A DNA stretch of 64,000 nucleotides. Origin: a virus. A program made the position numbers and the translations under genes. Within the stretch, counting starts at the first letter, position 1, and the number at the start of each line of letters is the position of its first letter. The notes below the pieces were generated by a model that saw only the letters and a program-made list of their open reading frames with translations, searched no databases and was not told the origin of the DNA. Where the stretch lies: the IMG/VR virus record IMGVR_UViG_3300036760_000150, positions 1-64,000 of that record, one strand, 5' to 3'. This document shows positions 26,100 through 45,060 of this stretch, in pieces.

Positions 26100-28466
26100 A
26101 TGAAACTAACAAATAGAACTCACAAAGGTCTATCGGTCATCGAGGGGTCGGAGGAGATGATCTCGGTCATCGACAAGAAGGTAGACTCTGACGGGTCGGT
26201 GCCAATGGAGGCCAACCAAGACATGGGTGGCTTCAAGGTCACCAACATGGCTACACCCACCCAACCTGGCGATGCAGCCACCAAAGCTTACGTCGATGCA
26301 GAAGGTTTCCCAGAGACACTGACTGTCTACGTTAGGAAGGATGGCAGTCCAGACGGTAACGGTACTCGTAACCAGCCGTTCGACACCGTCACAGCCGGTA
26401 TACAGAAAGCAATCGACGACGGCGTGACGCCTGACAACCCTATGTTACTCAGGCTTGGTGCTGGTGGTTGGTTTGAAGACACTATACTGAACATCCCTGC
26501 AGGGTTGAGCGTGACTGGCGAAGGAGCAGAACTCACTGCTATAGGCCATGAGACGAACGGTGACCCAATCATCTTGTCTTATGGGTCTAACACAATAGGT
26601 GTAGAGTTCGCACAACAGTTTGAGGACATGACGTTCGGTGACGGCATAGAGATCGACCGTGATCCTGGACTTGCTTACCCAGAATTTGCTAGGTTCACCT
26701 TCATGAGCTGTAATATCTTAGGCAGCAGTGTGAACGCCACAGGATCAGGTCTTGGTGAAGAGCAAATACGTATAACCAACTGTCACTGCAACACTGTAAG
26801 TGTTAACGGGATGTCTCTGACACTCAGAACTAGCCGCATGTTGAACGTAAACTTGTCAGACATCGGTGTGGATGGTCAGACGCAGGTGATCCATCTTGTA
26901 CACAACAACAGGGGTCAATTTTGCAACCTGTTCGACGACTCTCTAGCCATCCTGAACAACAACAGGTTCACTAGGATCAGACTGGATGGACCAGATTGTG
27001 GTATGGATATAGATTTGGCATCTACTCCAGCATTTCCTAGTAATTTTCAATTTATAAATGGTGCTACTTCAGCTCAAATGAATAGAACAAATATTCCTAA
27101 AGGAATGAATGTTACGTTAGTTGATGGAGCAAATTGGGCAAACGCTCCCCTTAATTTAGAAGAACAACTTCAAAAATATGAAAACATGCTTGTGAAGTTA
27201 GCTTGGAATGGAGGTATTCCAGACGTTGGAGGTGACGTCGAGGGTATGACAACCCAAACTAGTGGTAATCCAATAGCTCCAACTGGCGGTTTGTTATATC
27301 AAACTGGTGCTCTTGAAGGAATTTCCAGTGGATTTCTTCAAACTGGCTCTATTAAACACGTCACGGGTGACGTAGGCAGCAGCATCGATGATTCGGTGTC
27401 TGGACATATCATCCTCAAGACTGGAAAAAATAACGGGAATGGTGGCAGAAGCGGTGGTATATATCTTCGATTAGGTGACAGTTCTACCGCTGAGTTGAGC
27501 GAACCAGACTTTGGCTGGCTACAATTCATAAATAATGATGCTAATCAGCAAGATCGAGGTATTTATATTGAGGGTAATGAAGTTACTCTGAACGGTATTT
27601 CTGGTAGACGCGGTGTTGGGTTATTTGCAAGTGTCGCAGATTATGAATCACCCCCATCTGATACAATTTTATTAAAGGCTAGTGCTGGCATAAAAATGAC
27701 AGGTGCTATGTCCCAAGGATTCCGTGTTATAGCGTCTGGTTTATACTCTCATGCAGAAGGTTTTTCTGATAACGTGGGAGTTCGCGGTGTTGCTTCTGGT
27801 GATTATTCTCACTCGGAAGGTGTAGACTGTAACTCTGATGGACAAGCTTCCCATTCTGAAGGTCTCAACACTTCATCTACAGGACAAGCTTCGCATTCTG
27901 AAGGTAAAAATACAGAAGCAAGTAACGTGGCTGCTCATGTTGAGGGTGAAGAAACTACTGCAAGTGGACATGCATCGCATGCAGAAGGAACAAGTGGAGA
28001 AGCTAGTGGTTATGCTTCACACTCGGAAGGAACAGATTGTACAGCTGCTGGAACGGCCTCTCATGCTGCTGGTACCGGTACTATTGCTAATGGTGATTAT
28101 CAAACAGTCGTTGGTCAATTTAACGTAGCAGTTGGAACTCCTACGTCTCCAGTCGCTACTGACGAAATTAATTCAGTTGGTAACGGGGCAAACAACGGTA
28201 GTAGAAATACAGCTTGGGCAATCTTAAGAGATGGCCGAATGAAATACCAACATTGTGGATTAGCTAGTTTGGTATTGGGTGCAGTTACGGTAGCATCATC
28301 AGTTGTTACGGCTTCTAGTAGAATTTTCTTATCGGTGCAGGATATTAGTGCCACTCCTGGTTTTGTCAGTATAGCGAATATTGTCCCTGGAGTAAGTTTT
28401 GACATCATCAGTTCCGTCGGCACAGATGATAGCGATGTGGCCTGGATGTTGGTGGAATCCTTTTAA
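26100..28466 (+). CDS. Tail-fibre/tailspike protein with beta-helix and YadA-like head repeats, 788 aa
   Basis: Starts at ATG 26100 after GAGGT. Residues ~30-75 carry ANQDMGGFKVTNMATPTQPG, common in phage fibres at the start of the shaft. Residues ~78-115 (VYVRKDGSPDGNGTRNQPFD) begin a pectate-lyase-like beta-helix. From ~545 to 665 the protein has repeated GxxSHSEG/ASHAEG units like the left-handed head of trimeric autotransporter adhesins. The last ~100 residues probably form the tip. DNA turns abruptly A/T-rich near 27010, pointing to a swapped receptor-binding half. Confidence 0.75.
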   Translation: MKLTNRTHKGLSVIEGSEEMISVIDKKVDSDGSVPMEANQDMGGFKVTNMATPTQPGDAATKAYVDAEGFPETLTVYVRKDGSPDGNGTRNQPFDTVTAGIQKAIDDGVTPDNPMLLRLGAGGWFEDTILNIPAGLSVTGEGAELTAIGHETNGDPIILSYGSNTIGVEFAQQFEDMTFGDGIEIDRDPGLAYPEFARFTFMSCNILGSSVNATGSGLGEEQIRITNCHCNTVSVNGMSLTLRTSRMLNVNLSDIGVDGQTQVIHLVHNNRGQFCNLFDDSLAILNNNRFTRIRLDGPDCGMDIDLASTPAFPSNFQFINGATSAQMNRTNIPKGMNVTLVDGANWANAPLNLEEQLQKYENMLVKLAWNGGIPDVGGDVEGMTTQTSGNPIAPTGGLLYQTGALEGISSGFLQTGSIKHVTGDVGSSIDDSVSGHIILKTGKNNGNGGRSGGIYLRLGDSSTAELSEPDFGWLQFINNDANQQDRGIYIEGNEVTLNGISGRRGVGLFASVADYESPPSDTILLKASAGIKMTGAMSQGFRVIASGLYSHAEGFSDNVGVRGVASGDYSHSEGVDCNSDGQASHSEGLNTSSTGQASHSEGKNTEASNVAAHVEGEETTASGHASHAEGTSGEASGYASHSEGTDCTAAGTASHAAGTGTIANGDYQTVVGQFNVAVGTPTSPVATDEINSVGNGANNGSRNTAWAILRDGRMKYQHCGLASLVLGAVTVASSVVTASSRIFLSVQDISATPGFVSIANIVPGVSFDIISSVGTDDSDVAWMLVESF
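27735..28095 (+). repeat. YadA-head-type protein repeats within the fibre
   Basis: About eight imperfect units of some 14-18 residues, each centred on SH(S/A)EG, for example GLYSHAEGFSDN, GDYSHSEGVDC, GQASHSEGLNT and GYASHSEGTDC. At the DNA level they are diverged, so the repeat is maintained as protein structure, not as recent duplication. Confidence 0.8.
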
Positions 28467-29417: not shown

Positions 29418-29906
29418 CTATTTGGCATCTTCTTCTTTTGTTCCAACTTCTACCATTGTAACACCTTGAATATGGTCGTACTCGTGCAGTATGCATCGTG
29501 CGGTTATGTGATCGAAATGCCTATCCTCGTGCCTTTGTAGATGATGATCGTAGTATGTGATCCATATCTTCTCGGCACGTCTAACCCGACATTTAACCTC
29601 TTGATCTTTGAAGCTGAGACACCCCTCGGTCATAGTAATCTCACCCTGCGTATTGGTGATGATGGGGTTGATCATGGCAGTTCTTATGCCACCTTTGTAG
29701 CTTGTGGTGTCTATCACGAACACTCTCAACAAAGAATTTATTTGATTGGCAGATAGCCCTATGCCGCCACTCTTTAACATGGTGTAGAACATGTTGTCGA
29801 TAAGCGTCTGTAAGTCGGGAGACTGAAGATCTGCGACTGCCTCAGCTCTGGTATTGAGGATCTTGTCAGGGTACTGTAGGATAGGCAGGACCTCAGGATC
29901 TTTCAC
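29418..29906 (-). CDS. def: Peptide deformylase, 162 aa
   Basis: All three catalytic motifs are intact: GIGLSANQ (residues 48-55), EGCLSF (94-99, metal ligand C96) and HEYDH (141-145, ligands H141 and H145, catalytic E142). The enzyme removes the formyl group from nascent proteins. Phage versions occur in cyanophages and other large phages, where they are thought to help mature particular proteins during infection. Start is GTG 29906 with no clear ribosome-binding site. It follows the 282-aa gene by five bases. Confidence 0.93.
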   Translation of the reverse strand: MKDPEVLPILQYPDKILNTRAEAVADLQSPDLQTLIDNMFYTMLKSGGIGLSANQINSLLRVFVIDTTSYKGGIRTAMINPIITNTQGEITMTEGCLSFKDQEVKCRVRRAEKIWITYYDHHLQRHEDRHFDHITARCILHEYDHIQGVTMVEVGTKEEDAK

Positions 29907-30826: not shown

Positions 30827-31000
30827 TTATCTCTTGTCCTTGTATCGTGGCTTACGATTGCCATGTCTTGCTTGACGTTTGGCGTTCTCTCCCTTGTTGG
30901 GTGGACATATCGAGCAACGAAGCTTTTTTCTGTTGAGTTTGTTAACAACTGACGGATTTGACTCTTCTTGGATCTTACCCTTGCCTTTGGTACCCTTCAT
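30827..31000 (-). CDS. Small basic CxxC protein, 57 aa
   Basis: ATG 31000 lies inside the WEPED codons of the upstream gene, and those same codons (GGGAGCCTGAGG) provide its ribosome-binding site. The product is very basic and has one CSIC pair, with a C-terminal RKPRYKDKR tail. Possibly a nucleic-acid- or protein-binding mini-protein. It overlaps the upstream gene by 26 bases in another frame. Confidence 0.6.
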   Translation of the reverse strand: MKGTKGKGKIQEESNPSVVNKLNRKKLRCSICPPNKGENAKRQARHGNRKPRYKDKR

Positions 31001-31163
31001 CCTCAGGCTCCCATGAGTAGTAGTATATATGATGTCCAGGAGGTTTCATCCCGGCTTTTTCTACAGCCTTAAGAACATTCTTGGCTTCTTCAAACCAATG
31101 TCTGGTAGGATCAGAAGCTGCTATAGCCTCTTCGATAGTCTTAAGCATCTCACTTCTCTTCAT
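30975..31163 (-). CDS. MKRSEM/WEPED family small protein, paralogue A, 62 aa
   Basis: Begins MKRSEMLKTIEEAI, continues as a helix to the conserved AGMKPP motif (~residues 37-42), and ends YYYSWEPEDEG plus a short tail. Two relatives lie within 1 kb (31562-31816 and 31803-32090). I recall this family as widespread in phages and of unknown function. ATG 31163 follows AAGGAGTAGG and overlaps the upstream stop (ATGA). Confidence 0.75.
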   Translation of the reverse strand: MKRSEMLKTIEEAIAASDPTRHWFEEAKNVLKAVEKAGMKPPGHHIYYYSWEPEDEGYQRQG

Positions 31164-31402
31164 GACCTACTCCTTCGCACTTCACGGGCAAGTCTCAATA
31201 GCCTAGATTGACCAGATACGATGTCGCGAGAGTACGTGGTCTTGCTGTACAGGCCTTCAGCCTTCATCTGTTTAGCTAACTCGTAACGTCTATCGATCTC
31301 GTTGTTGCTAAGCGGATCACAGTAGATGCCTTCCCACAGATGCTGATGCGCAAGAAGCCACGTGATGACTTTATCTTTATTGAAGATCCTGACTTTGGTC
31401 AT
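31160..31402 (-). CDS. Hypothetical protein, 80 aa
   Basis: A helical, basic protein (MTKVRIFNKDKVITWLLAHQ) with an arginine-rich C-terminus. It is locked between neighbours by ATGA overlaps at both ends, so it is surely translated as part of the cluster. No family recognised; the middle part NNEIDRRYELAKQMKAEG suggests a small helix bundle, perhaps a regulator. Confidence 0.65.
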   Translation of the reverse strand: MTKVRIFNKDKVITWLLAHQHLWEGIYCDPLSNNEIDRRYELAKQMKAEGLYSKTTYSRDIVSGQSRLLRLAREVRRSRS

Positions 31403-31572
31403 ATAGTATCTCTCCCGTTCGTGTCGACTTTACCGCAATACGAGCTAAACCAAAACAAAAGATTACATCTAAGACATTTGATGTAGGTTGTCACATCGCT
31501 TGAGTTATAGTAATCTTCACTGACCACGTAGTTGTGCGTACTACTGCTACAACGCGGACATTCATAGCCCAT
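31399..31572 (-). CDS. Zinc-ribbon mini-protein, 57 aa
   Basis: Two CxxC pairs (CPRC near residue 5 and CLRC near residue 33) form a probable zinc ribbon. Start chosen at ATG 31572, which arises inside the WEPED codons of the upstream gene; the longer frame would run on inside that gene. The 11-base overlap and start position repeat the arrangement seen at 31000. Likely nucleic-acid- or protein-binding. Confidence 0.7.
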   Translation of the reverse strand: MGYECPRCSSSTHNYVVSEDYYNSSDVTTYIKCLRCNLLFWFSSYCGKVDTNGRDTI

Positions 31573-31816
31573 CTTCAGGTTCCCATCTATTTTCGTATGT
31601 CTTGTCGTACTTAGAAGTATGACCATCGATATAGCGCTCTGAAGAAACACATATTTTAGGAGGTGATATACCTAATCTTTCCATCATGCCGAGTATGGCG
31701 TTCATGTGAAACATCGCCTGCTCTTTGAAGTGGTCGTCTACAGGTGTTCCTTCCTTTTTAACTGTCTCGGTTACACAATACTCAATCATATTGTTGACCA
31801 TCTCACTTCGTTTCAT
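31562..31816 (-). CDS. MKRSEM/WEPED family small protein, paralogue B, 84 aa
   Basis: Starts MKRSEMVNNMIEYC at ATG 31816 and has LGISPP (residues 48-53) where its relatives have GMKPP. It ends NRWEPEDGL. The start lies inside the end of the third paralogue. A longer in-frame start exists but would be buried in that gene and would lose the family N-terminus. Function unknown. Confidence 0.75.
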   Translation of the reverse strand: MKRSEMVNNMIEYCVTETVKKEGTPVDDHFKEQAMFHMNAILGMMERLGISPPKICVSSERYIDGHTSKYDKTYENRWEPEDGL

Positions 31817-32090
31817 GTTTTTGTGCCTCTTCTCTGTATTTTTTCCGACGCAGTCTGGCTGCCTGTACTTTTTCATCTTTTAACAAATCTTCGTCCCATT
31901 GGTTGAATGTGTAGCCAGCATAGTAAACTGATATAATGGCCTGACGATCCTCTTCGGACACTGATGGTGGTTTCATCCCCAGAAATTCTATATGGTTAAG
32001 CAACGACTCTGCTTGACCTCTGTGTTCTGGGTTTTCACTTTTACCATGCAACCAATGTAATATACCATCGATCATGTCACTTCGTTTCAT
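31803..32090 (-). CDS. MKRSEM/WEPED family small protein, paralogue C, 95 aa
   Basis: Starts MKRSDMIDGIL at ATG 32090, six bases after GGAGG; an ATG six bases earlier is too close to that site. GMKPP is kept (residues ~45-49) and the terminal motif is reduced to NQWDED, followed by a basic helical extension of about 25 residues that its relatives lack. Oldest or most diverged of the three copies. Confidence 0.75.
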   Translation of the reverse strand: MKRSDMIDGILHWLHGKSENPEHRGQAESLLNHIEFLGMKPPSVSEEDRQAIISVYYAGYTFNQWDEDLLKDEKVQAARLRRKKYREEAQKHETK

Positions 32091-32217
32091 CCCCATCCTC
32101 CACCAGTCTGATAGACTCTCTTCGCGACCTTGCGCGGGCATCCAAGTACATCTTCTTGATCGACATGACAACAGAAATGGTCAACGTCACCGTCATGGTG
32201 ACCAGGAAGATCATCAT
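32077..32217 (-). CDS. Single-pass membrane micro-protein, 46 aa
   Basis: MMIFLVTMTVTLTISVVM forms one transmembrane helix, followed by a short basic and acidic cytoplasmic tail. ATG 32217 follows GAGGTAGGC; the stop lies inside the first codons of the MKRSDM gene, so the genes overlap by 14 bases. Could be a holin-like or accessory membrane peptide; no family evidence. Confidence 0.55.
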   Translation of the reverse strand: MMIFLVTMTVTLTISVVMSIKKMYLDARARSRRESIRLVEDGDETK

Positions 32218-32234
32218 GCCTACCTCAAAAACAC

Positions 32235-32333
32235 TCACAACCTAGACACCTTCATGATGACCATGCTGAGGATGATGTACGGTGCGAAGTTGATGTAGAA
32301 CGGACAGAACAGATAAGGGATCAACCGTCTCAC
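32235..32333 (-). CDS. Membrane micro-protein, 32 aa
   Basis: Starts at GTG 32333, overlapping the upstream stop (GTGA), with AGAGAGG six bases before. The sequence is almost wholly hydrophobic (RRLIPYLFCPFYINFAPYII). Its very small size lowers certainty, but the start signals are as good as those of its neighbours. Confidence 0.45.
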   Translation of the reverse strand: MRRLIPYLFCPFYINFAPYIILSMVIMKVSRL

Positions 32334-33901: not shown

Positions 33902-34663
33902 TTACCTATGCCTGTCACGGCATAGGTTCAAAATAATGTTGTTGGTGACCTTCGCAGTCGCCTGTGATGCACCAGAGATTCGTCCTTCGTTGTCGTATGG
34001 CAGCGTCGACAACACGTTAGATCCTATCTCAAATAGGACATCTTTGCCCCAACTGCTGTAAGACGACCTCTTCCCATCCTCGTCCAACGACCCTACCTTG
34101 ATTATGTGTTCAAGATCGTAGGATGCTGGGTAGAAAGGTGTCTTATCTATGTTATGCTGCTCGTTACCTACTGACGCTACCACGAATGCTCCGTTGGCGG
34201 TCAGCGCCTTCATGGCGCTGTACTCGTCCTGTAAGTACTCATCTCCGCCTGCTGATATGTTGACTAAAGTGACCTTTAGTATCAAAGCTTTCTGTATACA
34301 TTCTGTCATATGATGTTGGTTCTCATCACCTGAGTTCAACGAGTCGAAGAACTTACACGGTATAAATTCAACTTCACTGCACGCATCTCTTAGGATGATG
34401 CCAGCGACATGTGTGCCGTGGTTGTGGTAGTCCATGTAGTCGATGTTCTTGTAGCGTGACGGTATGTACCTACTCAACTTCTTGTTGTTGTAGTCTACGC
34501 CTGTGTCGATCGCCATCACCTTTATAGGTCTGTCATTGACCTTCGAGGTGTTCGATGCATCTTCTGACGCGTACACAGACACGTACATGGCAACCGCTAT
34601 GCACACTGCGATGGCTGCCAAGACGATATTCAACAATGCTACTGCTTTCAGGAACCTCAACAT
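33902..34663 (-). CDS. Membrane-anchored subtilisin-like serine protease (S8), 253 aa
   Basis: The catalytic triad is visible: D53 (AIDTGVD), H82 (HGTHVAG) and S233 (SGASQATAKV), with oxyanion residue N167 (SVGNEQ). Residues 1-31 form an uncleaved signal anchor with a hydrophobic core of about 22 residues, so the protease domain should face the periplasm or cell surface. There is no propeptide and the domain is small for the family. S8 proteases are uncommon in phages. Possible roles are cleaving surface proteins of the host or competing phages, or maturing virion proteins. A promoter-like sequence ends at its ATG. Confidence 0.88.
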   Translation of the reverse strand: MLRFLKAVALLNIVLAAIAVCIAVAMYVSVYASEDASNTSKVNDRPIKVMAIDTGVDYNNKKLSRYIPSRYKNIDYMDYHNHGTHVAGIILRDACSEVEFIPCKFFDSLNSGDENQHHMTECIQKALILKVTLVNISAGGDEYLQDEYSAMKALTANGAFVVASVGNEQHNIDKTPFYPASYDLEHIIKVGSLDEDGKRSSYSSWGKDVLFEIGSNVLSTLPYDNEGRISGASQATAKVTNNIILNLCRDRHR

Positions 34664-42261: not shown

Positions 42262-42457
42262 CCTTAACCTCCAGGAACTTCCTTATGTAACGCATGAAAA
42301 GTATAGCTTTGTCGTCAGCCAAGAAACGAGCGTGTCCTATGTCATCTATCGGTACTGGAAAGACGAGCCCGCTGTCAGACTCGTAGTACAGTCTGTTGTC
42401 TTGGTAGTAGACGAACTTAACTCGACCTTTGATATGTGGCTTCACGTCTGCAGTCAT
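42251..42457 (-). CDS. Hypothetical protein, 68 aa
   Basis: Start chosen at ATG 42457, whose ATGA overlaps the helicase stop; an ATG nine bases earlier is also in frame. A small beta-sheet protein (GRVKFVYYQDNRLYYESDSG) ending in a helix. No family recognised. Confidence 0.6.
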   Translation of the reverse strand: MTADVKPHIKGRVKFVYYQDNRLYYESDSGLVFPVPIDDIGHARFLADDKAILFMRYIRKFLEVKDGD

Positions 42458-45060
42458 CTTGACCATCCATTAAAAGCACCAGATTTAGCATCCTCTAACA
42501 CCTTGGCGTCGTTCTCCATAGACTTGATGAATGCATCGACATCCTCAGACTTCTTGACGTCGCTTGACTCATCAAGGTATCCGATCAGATGGCCTACTGG
42601 TCTGCATCTACTACCGAACTTATCGAACATGTTAGAGTCACCATGGGTTAGACCTGCACCGTAGTCTGTTCTTGTGTGTATAGTTTGGTGCGTTATGTTG
42701 TCTCGTGATTTTATCACAGTGAGATGCAGAATCTCAAGTCTCTTGTCGTTGTTTGAGCGGTTAAGCGAGAGCATGTTTGCTATGTTCTGGCCGATGCCGT
42801 AGGACTCAGAGATAGAGTCTATGTCCAGGTACATATCACCTTCTGATGCTGACCTGTTAGCCTTGTACCCCTCTCTGTTTGTCTGAGCTGCCACAAGGCA
42901 GTGGGTCTTGAGTTCGCTGGCCAGCATGTTGAACGCATCGTAGATGTACGCCAACTCAACGCGAGATGTAACCTGTTGCTTAGACAACACCCTACTCTTG
43001 AGCTTGGCAGGGTAGTCATCTATGATGAGGTCGTAACCCTTACCAGTCTTAAGGCGTAGCTCTGAGTCTCGTTTCCTGATCTCTGCTACGACGTCTTCCA
43101 CATACATCTCCAAAGCCTTAGAGTAGTGTATGTAAGTCATGTGATCTTCGATGTACTTGCTGACCTCGTCTAGTATCTTTGCTGTGCCACTTGCAGACAT
43201 GGTGAGCAACTCCCTCTTGTTCATACCCATCATAGAGGCGAGTATAGTGCGACGTATCGATGTAGGTTTACCTTCATGAGTGATTAGAAGTACCTTTTTC
43301 CCTTGATATATTGCATGCCTAGCTATGGTAAGCATCAACGTTGTGTTATGTGTGACTGTAAAATCTCCCAGCAAAAAGAGATGATCACCGCCTAATTCAA
43401 ATCCATAATATTTTCCTTTTCCAACAAAATCAACCGAGAAGCCGCATGTTAATGGATTTTTCTTAGCATCTGATTTGTTTCGCTTGCGCTTAATGCGTAG
43501 TGGTAAGCAAGATACTGCTCCAGCAATAGTTAGTCTAAAGTAATTACCGGTAAAACCTATGGATTTAATAGTTTTAATTACATTTTTCATCGTTACTTTG
43601 AACCCCAAACTTCTAGCTAAAAATGCCACATTGTCGGCCAATATCTTTGATTTTTGTACGAAGTCGATGATTCCATTTGATATATATCCATCTGTATCTA
43701 TTAAACCGGCTAGAAGTTGTAGCCTCTGTTCTGTTGAACCAGTCAGGTATTGATGTGGTATGTGCTTGTTGTTTATAAGACCAAGGCCTCTTAGGGCTGT
43801 AAGAAATGGGTTGCCATGATGATTGTTAGATATGGCATACATTTTTGCCCTGCCACTGTTAGTGTTATTATTAATTGTAACATGACATCCTATCTCATCA
43901 GCATACGACGAAATTGCCTCTACAACTTCATTGTCCATAGTTGTAAATCTTGCCGAGTCACTATTACCATCACCAAGCCATAAACCTAATATGTACGGTG
44001 GTATTTCCAACCTTTTTTCTTTAAAATCAATAGCAGTTCTCCACATTCTACTACATCGTTTGAAATCACTACATTTTTGTAGATACTCATTCAATGATAT
44101 GTTCAATATATCGCCTTTCTTACGATAACCATTATTGTAACCTGCCTTTAAGCTCAGTACATGTACATCGTTGCATATCCAACTGATGCCACCAGCATTG
44201 GGCGTTATTTTATATAATGGTCCATAGCCAATTGTTGTACCAAGTACCAATCTTGGTTTCGAGTCTGGCCCCATTAATTGATCGCCCACGACAACATCTT
44301 GTACATTTTTTACAGTACCATCAAACATTAGTACCGGAGTATCTTTTCCTAAGCATTTTCCAGTGTTAGTCGGGGCCAAGATGGCGGTTGCCTCCCCTTT
44401 GAACATGCCACCCTTTATTATCTTGTCTTTCTTACCGTCACGCTCGATCTCTACGATGTTCCCCCCAAGTGCTCCGTCTAGCACAGAGCTGCCTGTGGAG
44501 ATGGCATTCTCCATGTCCTTGGCCTCATCTGCAAGCCAAAGCTCTGGGTTGATGAACCTGATCACCATGGCGTCATCTTCAAATGTAGCCTTCTCTATCT
44601 CCTGCAGACGCTCTTTGGTCTTGACGTAAGCGTCGTCGAACCCCTTGACCTTGAACAGGTTAGCTGCCCCCTGGATAGACTCCTTGAACAAAGATATGCG
44701 GATGAATCCTGTGAGGTAACGTCTCAAAGTTTCTAGATTGAATTTATGAGTACTCATCAAGCAGTTGGCAACTGTTGTCAAGTACTTCTCACGCTCAGTT
44801 AATGTGTGTTCAAGGAAGAACGGCTCACCCATAAGCTCGTCGACCGACTGTATGTATCGATGATGATGATCGTAGAACTTACATAGCTGGTCAAACACGG
44901 TGGCGACCAACGGGTCATAGGTGAACCACCCTGGTTTGATCTGCTCTTGACATTTCAAGAAGAAGAGTGACTCTCGTAGACACCAGCCTACTATAGCTTC
45001 TTGCTGTGTCTGCGAGAATGGCAGCACTGATATGTGGTCTTGTGCGTTTAAGGTCTTCAA
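42454..45060 (-). CDS. Replicative DNA helicase (DnaB/gp41-like) with intein, 868 aa precursor
   Basis: The extein parts total 531 residues, near the usual length. The helicase core has Walker A APTNTGK|TTLML, split by an intein exactly after the lysine, then KVLLITHEG, the Walker B DLIIDDYPA and CLVAAQTNREG, as in RecA-fold hexameric helicases that open the fork. Start is TTG 45060, overlapping the primase stop (TTGA) with AGGA upstream; no ATG is available nearby. Without splicing the ATP site is broken, so helicase activity depends on protein splicing. It is next to primase and recombinase genes. Confidence 0.9.
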   Translation of the reverse strand: MKTLNAQDHISVLPFSQTQQEAIVGWCLRESLFFLKCQEQIKPGWFTYDPLVATVFDQLCKFYDHHHRYIQSVDELMGEPFFLEHTLTEREKYLTTVANCLMSTHKFNLETLRRYLTGFIRISLFKESIQGAANLFKVKGFDDAYVKTKERLQEIEKATFEDDAMVIRFINPELWLADEAKDMENAISTGSSVLDGALGGNIVEIERDGKKDKIIKGGMFKGEATAILAPTNTGKCLGKDTPVLMFDGTVKNVQDVVVGDQLMGPDSKPRLVLGTTIGYGPLYKITPNAGGISWICNDVHVLSLKAGYNNGYRKKGDILNISLNEYLQKCSDFKRCSRMWRTAIDFKEKRLEIPPYILGLWLGDGNSDSARFTTMDNEVVEAISSYADEIGCHVTINNNTNSGRAKMYAISNNHHGNPFLTALRGLGLINNKHIPHQYLTGSTEQRLQLLAGLIDTDGYISNGIIDFVQKSKILADNVAFLARSLGFKVTMKNVIKTIKSIGFTGNYFRLTIAGAVSCLPLRIKRKRNKSDAKKNPLTCGFSVDFVGKGKYYGFELGGDHLFLLGDFTVTHNTTLMLTIARHAIYQGKKVLLITHEGKPTSIRRTILASMMGMNKRELLTMSASGTAKILDEVSKYIEDHMTYIHYSKALEMYVEDVVAEIRKRDSELRLKTGKGYDLIIDDYPAKLKSRVLSKQQVTSRVELAYIYDAFNMLASELKTHCLVAAQTNREGYKANRSASEGDMYLDIDSISESYGIGQNIANMLSLNRSNNDKRLEILHLTVIKSRDNITHQTIHTRTDYGAGLTHGDSNMFDKFGSRCRPVGHLIGYLDESSDVKKSEDVDAFIKSMENDAKVLEDAKSGAFNGWSR
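43345..44355 (-). mobile_element. Intein with LAGLIDADG homing endonuclease in helicase Walker A
   Basis: Precursor residues C236-N572 (337 aa). It begins CLGKDTPVLMFDG (block A), ends GDFTVTHN (block G), and the +1 residue is Thr. The endonuclease motifs LGLWLGDG (~358-365) and LLAGLIDTDGYI (~449-460) both keep their acidic residue, so it is probably active. The DNA is clearly A/T-richer than the flanking helicase sequence, a sign of transfer. Confidence 0.93.

Follow-up and report, generated by a model that had tools for sequence, protein, structure and literature searches.

The analyzed window comprises 64,000 nucleotides (positions 1 to 64,000) of the IMG/VR record IMGVR_UViG_3300036760_000150, a large phage genome of 146,673 bases with genes of its own for DNA polymerase III alpha, a RecA-like protein and a DnaB-like helicase. 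No close relatives of the window DNA were found among named phages, and searches with single proteins recovered no related loci. On the minus strand, the window carries an intein-bearing DnaB-type helicase gene, the intein being recognized by its Hint domain and LAGLIDADG homing endonuclease (42454-45060), a phage peptide deformylase gene with a strong Pfam match (29418-29906), and a gene for a 253-aa protein (33902-34663) whose DTG, HGTHVAG and GASQAT motifs suggest a small subtilisin-type protease. The plus strand encodes a 788-aa probable tail protein (26100-28466) with ASHSEG/ASHAEG repeats of approximately 14 residues, units that seem to resemble trimeric adhesin head repeats.

The locus under study lies on the minus strand and contains three paralogues starting with MKRSE or MKRSD (copies 1, 2 and 3), interleaved with other small genes (Table 1). 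From the small ORF before copy 3 to nested gene 1, successive overlaps measured 14, 14, 11, 4, 4 and 26 nt; the nested starts correspond to the 11-nt (gene 2) and 26-nt (gene 1) values, and the other joints to 14, 14, 4 and 4 nt. The TGA of the small ORF sits within the AGTGA of copy 3's MKRSD start, giving the first 14-nt overlap, and the TGA of nested gene 2 overlaps the start of the 80-aa gene within ATGA (31402-31399). A fourth family copy was detected in the same record outside the window (G000:C1:86247-86492, plus strand; locus L031:1501-1749), with the tail QWDPEAEDKQDA and a GTG/ATG frame overlapping its stop.

Table 1. Features of the MKRSE/D gene chain, in window coordinates and in order of transcription.
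Feature	Position	Strand	Description
Small ORF before copy 3	32077..32238	-	At most 53 aa, start codon uncertain; ends DGDETK-stop
Copy 3, MKRSE family	31803..32090	-	95 aa; long C-terminal segment with WDED; ends HETK-stop
Joint ATGAAACGAAGTGA	31803..31816	-	14 nt; copy 3 end (HETK-stop) and copy 2 start (MKRSE)
Copy 2, MKRSE family	31562..31816	-	84 aa; ends WEPEDGL
WEPED codons of copy 2, TGGGAACCTGAAGAT	31571..31585	-	Shine-Dalgarno-like GGGAA and ATG at 31572
Nested downstream gene 2	31399..31572	-	57 aa; open frame; two CxxC pairs, zinc-ribbon-like
80-aa gene MTKVRIF...	31160..31402	-	4-nt overlap with preceding gene, 4-nt overlap with copy 1
Copy 1, MKRSE family	30975..31163	-	62 aa; ends WEPEDEGYQRQG
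WEPED codons of copy 1, TGGGAGCCTGAGGAT	30999..31013	-	Shine-Dalgarno-like GGGAG and ATG at 31000
Nested downstream gene 1	30827..31000	-	57-aa basic protein; open frame; CSICPPNKGEN

A preliminary description of the window, based on its letters and open reading frames, had stated that two of the three paralogues end in WEPED, that these codons form a Shine-Dalgarno (SD)-like sequence, and that an ATG at the second base of the Asp codon opens a 57-residue CxxC frame. WEPED is indeed present in copies 1 and 2, but it is followed by EGYQRQG in the former and by GL in the latter. The remaining details were recovered in both copies: SD-like codons (TGG GAG CCT GAG GAT in copy 1, TGG GAA CCT GAA GAT in copy 2), the ATG within the Asp codon (31000 and 31572), and the 57-codon CxxC frames (31000-30827 and 31572-31399). 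Anti-SD energies were -6.5 for the GGGAG of copy 1 and -4.2 for the GGGAA of copy 2, both located 7 nt before the ATG. Copy 3, described as having lost both motif and nested gene, departs from that account on both points, as WDED lies within its longer C-terminal segment (a type also found in loci L098 and L118) and its last 14 nt are shared with the start of copy 2, in the same style.

In order to collect relatives, IMG/VR was scanned with a pattern containing only M-K-x-S-[D/E] and, at the right distance, GMxPP in any codons, which left the tail, the Ser codon and the following gene unconstrained. The scan yielded 88 distinct member proteins, which together with the four copies from the window's record make up the 92 members considered here. 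A Trp was present after GMxPP in 92/92 members, residue 2 of the tail motif was E or D in 88/92, and residue 4 was E in 89/92, the general architecture being MKRSEM, then a helical stretch up to GMxPP, and from there a variable stretch, modelled as a beta-hairpin, up to W[E/D]xE. AlphaFold2, run on the alignment, predicted with confidence a small fold with two helices leading to a beta-hairpin and the Trp directly after it (pLDDT 90 for copy 2). Searches of the 92 members against Pfam, PHROGs, NCBIfam and PADLOC returned only isolated single-member matches (E 0.001 or weaker), a PDB sequence search gave no match, and neither did a fold search with the family model at E <= 0.001. No convincing member was obtained by tblastn against 50,697 phage records with these short and divergent queries, and therefore no cultured example of the family was found; weak matches to amidoligase, VP1 and similar proteins were judged to be due to chance, and two genome-contig matches (L136 and L137) were rejected, as they contain no family gene. 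Overall, the family is widespread in uncultivated viruses, multi-copy and absent from the family libraries searched, and it appears to be a previously undescribed family of small phage proteins.

Family members were also present in two Bacteroidota MAGs, a host clue limited by the unsafe binning of viral contigs. One contig binned with a Bacteroidales MAG (CAIWIS010000237.1; loci L139 and L140) contains three family members in two arrays and is probably viral DNA. Bacteroidota often do not use SD sequences (PMC6728339); the genes on the family's contigs do show them upstream.

Members were considered coupled when a frame 40 or more codons long (or running off the contig end) began 11-19 nt after the first base of the Trp codon, which was the case for 60/92 members (55 after removal of redundancy); about a third of the members had no start at this position. 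The start offsets from W among the 55 non-redundant coupled members were strongly concentrated (+13 in 34, +11 in nine, +14 in seven, other values in five), so that W+11/13/14 marked the start of the next gene in 50/55. The sequence GGGAR was located 5-8 nt ahead of the nested start, and the anti-SD energy at nested starts was -6.5, compared to -1.6 at other ATGs of the same genes (p = 1e-29). An SD sequence thus lies inside the upstream gene at the proper distance, as in coupled overlapping pairs; in E. coli, an intragenic SD is often needed for termination-reinitiation at such pairs (Huber et al. 2019, PMC6728339). At WEPEDE-stop sites the Asp codon was GAT in ten cases and GAC in none, small numbers that are in line with a nested ATG. 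A frameshift fusing the two frames was set aside, as no slippery heptamer was seen. A protein without MKRSE encoded on a GC-rich contig also ends in WEPEDE (L010:6449-6469, plus strand), with a 52-codon membrane-like frame opening at the same +13 ATG; this possible independent case was left out of all counts.

Recognizable families among the downstream proteins included Endonuclease VII, Clp/head-maturation protease, DEAD helicase, metallophosphoesterase, NTP transferase, DUF7448 and DUF2283, and the nested starts therefore belong to real genes. A 183-aa downstream gene common to loci L004, L005, L009 and L071 changes mainly at third codon positions, and does so from the nested start on. L071 has a WEPES tail, and its downstream gene starts with GTG where the others have ATG; motif residue 5 thus follows the start codon and not the reverse. 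In the window, two 57-codon frames are by themselves weak evidence for genes, the chance of one being open being approximately 6.5% each ((61/64)^57). All the small genes of the window, both nested frames included, scored between genes and spurious ORFs in codon usage. Nested gene 1 matched gp300 of Sphingomonas phage PAU (57 aa) at 47% over 30 aa, and the two are likely homologues; the codon usage of nested gene 2 was not gene-like, homologue searches with it found none, and what speaks for it is its position and overlap alone. Both frames were accepted as genes because relatives show nested starts of recognized gene families, and because a next frame overlapped the gene end in 71/86 members, against 408/818 other genes of the same contigs (p = 2.7e-9).

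The Glu codon after Trp was GAG in 34/47 coupled members, compared to 27% at the remaining Glu positions of these proteins (p = 2.5e-9) and, a weaker contrast, to 5/14 long-tailed members without a nested start (p = 0.02). Since the GAG bias occurred only where a start follows, the RNA-level constraint on this codon appears to be real. Similarly, Asp or Asn at motif position 5 was tied to a nested ATG (33/55 vs. 6/32, p = 3e-4). The long-tailed uncoupled members (n = 18), defined by a frame extending at least 12 residues beyond the Trp with no gene starting there, kept W[E/D] in 18/18 cases, which indicates that W[E/D]xE is also a protein motif. Both lines of evidence point to a motif that acts as protein and as RNA at once. 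In addition, 21 nt of WEPEDE adaptor DNA were found in L012 (1565-1585, minus strand) before a zinc-ribbon gene homologous to that of G001; the upstream gene of L012 reads this adaptor in another frame, and its end, RKKVGA-stop, falls inside it.

A comparable arrangement was observed at the 5' end. In most members MKRSE is written ATGAARMGNAGTGA. Both other frames meet a TGA there, and an upstream gene in either of them therefore ends with a 4- or a 14-nt overlap. Overlaps of 14 nt were found in 35/83 members and of 4 nt in 30/83, compared to 3.2% and 14.5% of control genes, respectively (n = 818). The Ser4 codon was AGT in 60/83 members, while AGT represented 61/250 (24%) elsewhere in the same proteins (p = 1e-14). 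In the tandem of L073 the WEPEDETK-stop of one member overlaps the MKRSE of the next, as also occurs in L096 and L103, and in such arrays the end of one member and the beginning of its successor are written in a single DNA stretch. In a tandem array of G001 (C1:62200-66419, minus strand), family genes alternate with small genes of other kinds, two related zinc-ribbon genes among them, and the joints are 8-nt and 14-nt overlaps.

The arrangement at the two gene ends could reflect ordinary packing, with W[E/D]xE needed for folding or binding and tightly packing phages using whatever GGGAR and ATG its codons happen to give, an explanation to which we assign somewhat less than an even chance. TGG GAR always spells GGGAR, W[E/D]xE persists in the 18 long-tailed members that lack a nested start, and half of the control genes overlap the next frame too. 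Packing does not, however, account for a GAG bias restricted to sites followed by a start, for the dependence of D/N at position 5 on the nested start, for overlaps at both gene ends far above those of controls, or for adaptor DNA preceding a downstream gene under another upstream frame, as in L012. Part of the pattern is nevertheless attributable to ordinary compaction, because overlapping starts are common in phages (50% of controls) and a -8 spacing is a known favoured one (PMC12548453).

Comparison between members revealed a marked mosaic structure, in which homology breaks at MKRSE, GMxPP and WExE. The ends of long similar DNA segments fell at the ATG, at GMxPP or at W/stop in 38/40 cases (35% expected); the pairs compared are not independent, so the p-value of this test overstates the case, yet the picture is clear. 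The gene of L069 resembles that of L087 in its N part (97%) and that of L129 in its C part (100%), L002 and L011 have an identical C part with differing N parts, and the difference between L074 and L090 is confined to the stretch between GMxPP and W. Such breaks point to module shuffling. Fast divergence of the C part under selection, instead of module exchange, would fit several pairs with moderate N-part identity and none in the C part; it is nonetheless improbable, given the existence of opposite pairs (C part 95-100% identical, N part 14-40%), of N parts 91-97% identical joined to unrelated C parts, and of the pair L074/L090, which differs only in the middle.

The preliminary description had proposed that the motif is conserved for its RNA function. 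The recurrence of ribosome-binding site and start in dozens of viral contigs, with the accompanying GAG bias, upholds a role at this level; conservation as RNA only is contradicted by the retention of W[E/D] in all 18 long-tailed members without a start. A pure RNA or DNA element, in which the WEPED peptide would have no protein role and be kept just as the ribosome-binding site of the next gene, would agree with the codon bias, the fixed start offsets and the L012 adaptor, where the DNA is retained without the peptide. It is very unlikely, as W is present in 92/92 members although an equally good SD would result from GAG preceded by an Arg, Gly or Lys codon, and it is largely refuted by uncoupled members that keep the motif (e.g., L070, L082, L086 and L125); L070, which carries WEPED with no following frame, is the very case named beforehand as decisive against the proposal. 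Also proposed was a pairing of each family member with a zinc mini-protein. A functional two-protein module of this kind, made of a family protein and the zinc-finger mini-protein that it overlaps, is hardly credible. Both window partners and partners in G001, L006 and L140 have CxxC, but only 11/55 downstream partners contain it, 8/55 are themselves family members, and the 60 downstream proteins fall into 44 unrelated clusters, a diversity that argues against one fixed partner. As a whole, the preliminary description was partly supported: its observations were mostly right and its interpretation half right.

The nested starts, SD sequences, codon bias, overlaps and segment boundaries, evident in the sequences themselves, are best read as a shuffling, translationally coupled cassette family, in which the 3' end of a gene doubles as the initiation region of the next one; we regard this reading as likely. 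TGG GAR would supply a GGGAR SD sequence, and an out-of-frame start codon would lie 5-8 nt beyond it, within the last codons or overlapping the stop. Ribosomes ending, or near ending, the family gene would meet GGGAR and the start and initiate the next gene, and upstream genes in either of the other frames would terminate inside MKRSE through ATGAARMGNAGTGA. Translation of the next cistron is thus probably coupled to that of the family gene, through either termination-reinitiation or local initiation. Ribosomal coupling has good support from these features, and recombination is what we infer from the mosaicism, with members swapping their N-terminal and C-terminal parts, as well as their neighbours, at the three conserved blocks. 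More tentatively, and with considerable doubt, the family might represent a phage gene-assembly kit, its blocks being at once protein motif, two-frame stop acceptor (MKRSE), recombination joint (GMxPP) and donor of ribosome-binding site and start (WExE); if so, phages could insert, swap and stack small genes, each still being expressed. Phage mosaicism and gene overlap are usually discussed as separate subjects, and one small-protein family seems to tie them together, in that the same short stretches seem to keep neighbours translated, end the preceding gene and mark the points of segment exchange. For gene calling in these phages, a W[E/D]xE end would predict exactly where the next gene starts, also for short genes that annotation may miss.

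Gp300 of phage PAU shares with nested gene 1 its length of 57 aa and the motif RCxxCPPNKGxN, but no family gene precedes it and a 46-nt gap lies upstream. According to the boundary-sequence model of lambdoid phage mosaicism, unrelated neighbours are exchanged at short conserved stretches located at gene borders. The family is similar in having such stretches with unrelated neighbours exchanged, and different in that one joint (GMxPP) is inside the gene and the stretches are conserved blocks of a single family; homeologous recombination by lambda Red has been the subject of separate work (PMC2327257). In cluster K mycobacteriophages, a short SD-bearing sequence (GGGATAGGAGCCC) is repeated before unrelated gene starts (SAS/ESAS; PMC3203893), just as the family element precedes the starts of genes from 44 downstream clusters. 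SAS, however, was not described as the coding end of a protein family (PMC3203893), whereas the family element (TGGGARCCNGARGATG) is the conserved C-terminus of a gene, protein-coding and overlapping the start, and is not a non-coding element matching the SAS consensus. The closest mechanistic parallel is given by termination-reinitiation pairs (PMC6728339; reviewed in PMC12548453), which have in common with the family the stop/start overlap, the SD within the upstream gene and the short negative spacing. Those pairs involve specific genes, while in the family the same SD and start, embedded in coding sequence, serve dozens of unrelated genes, and the other gene end also takes upstream stops in two frames.
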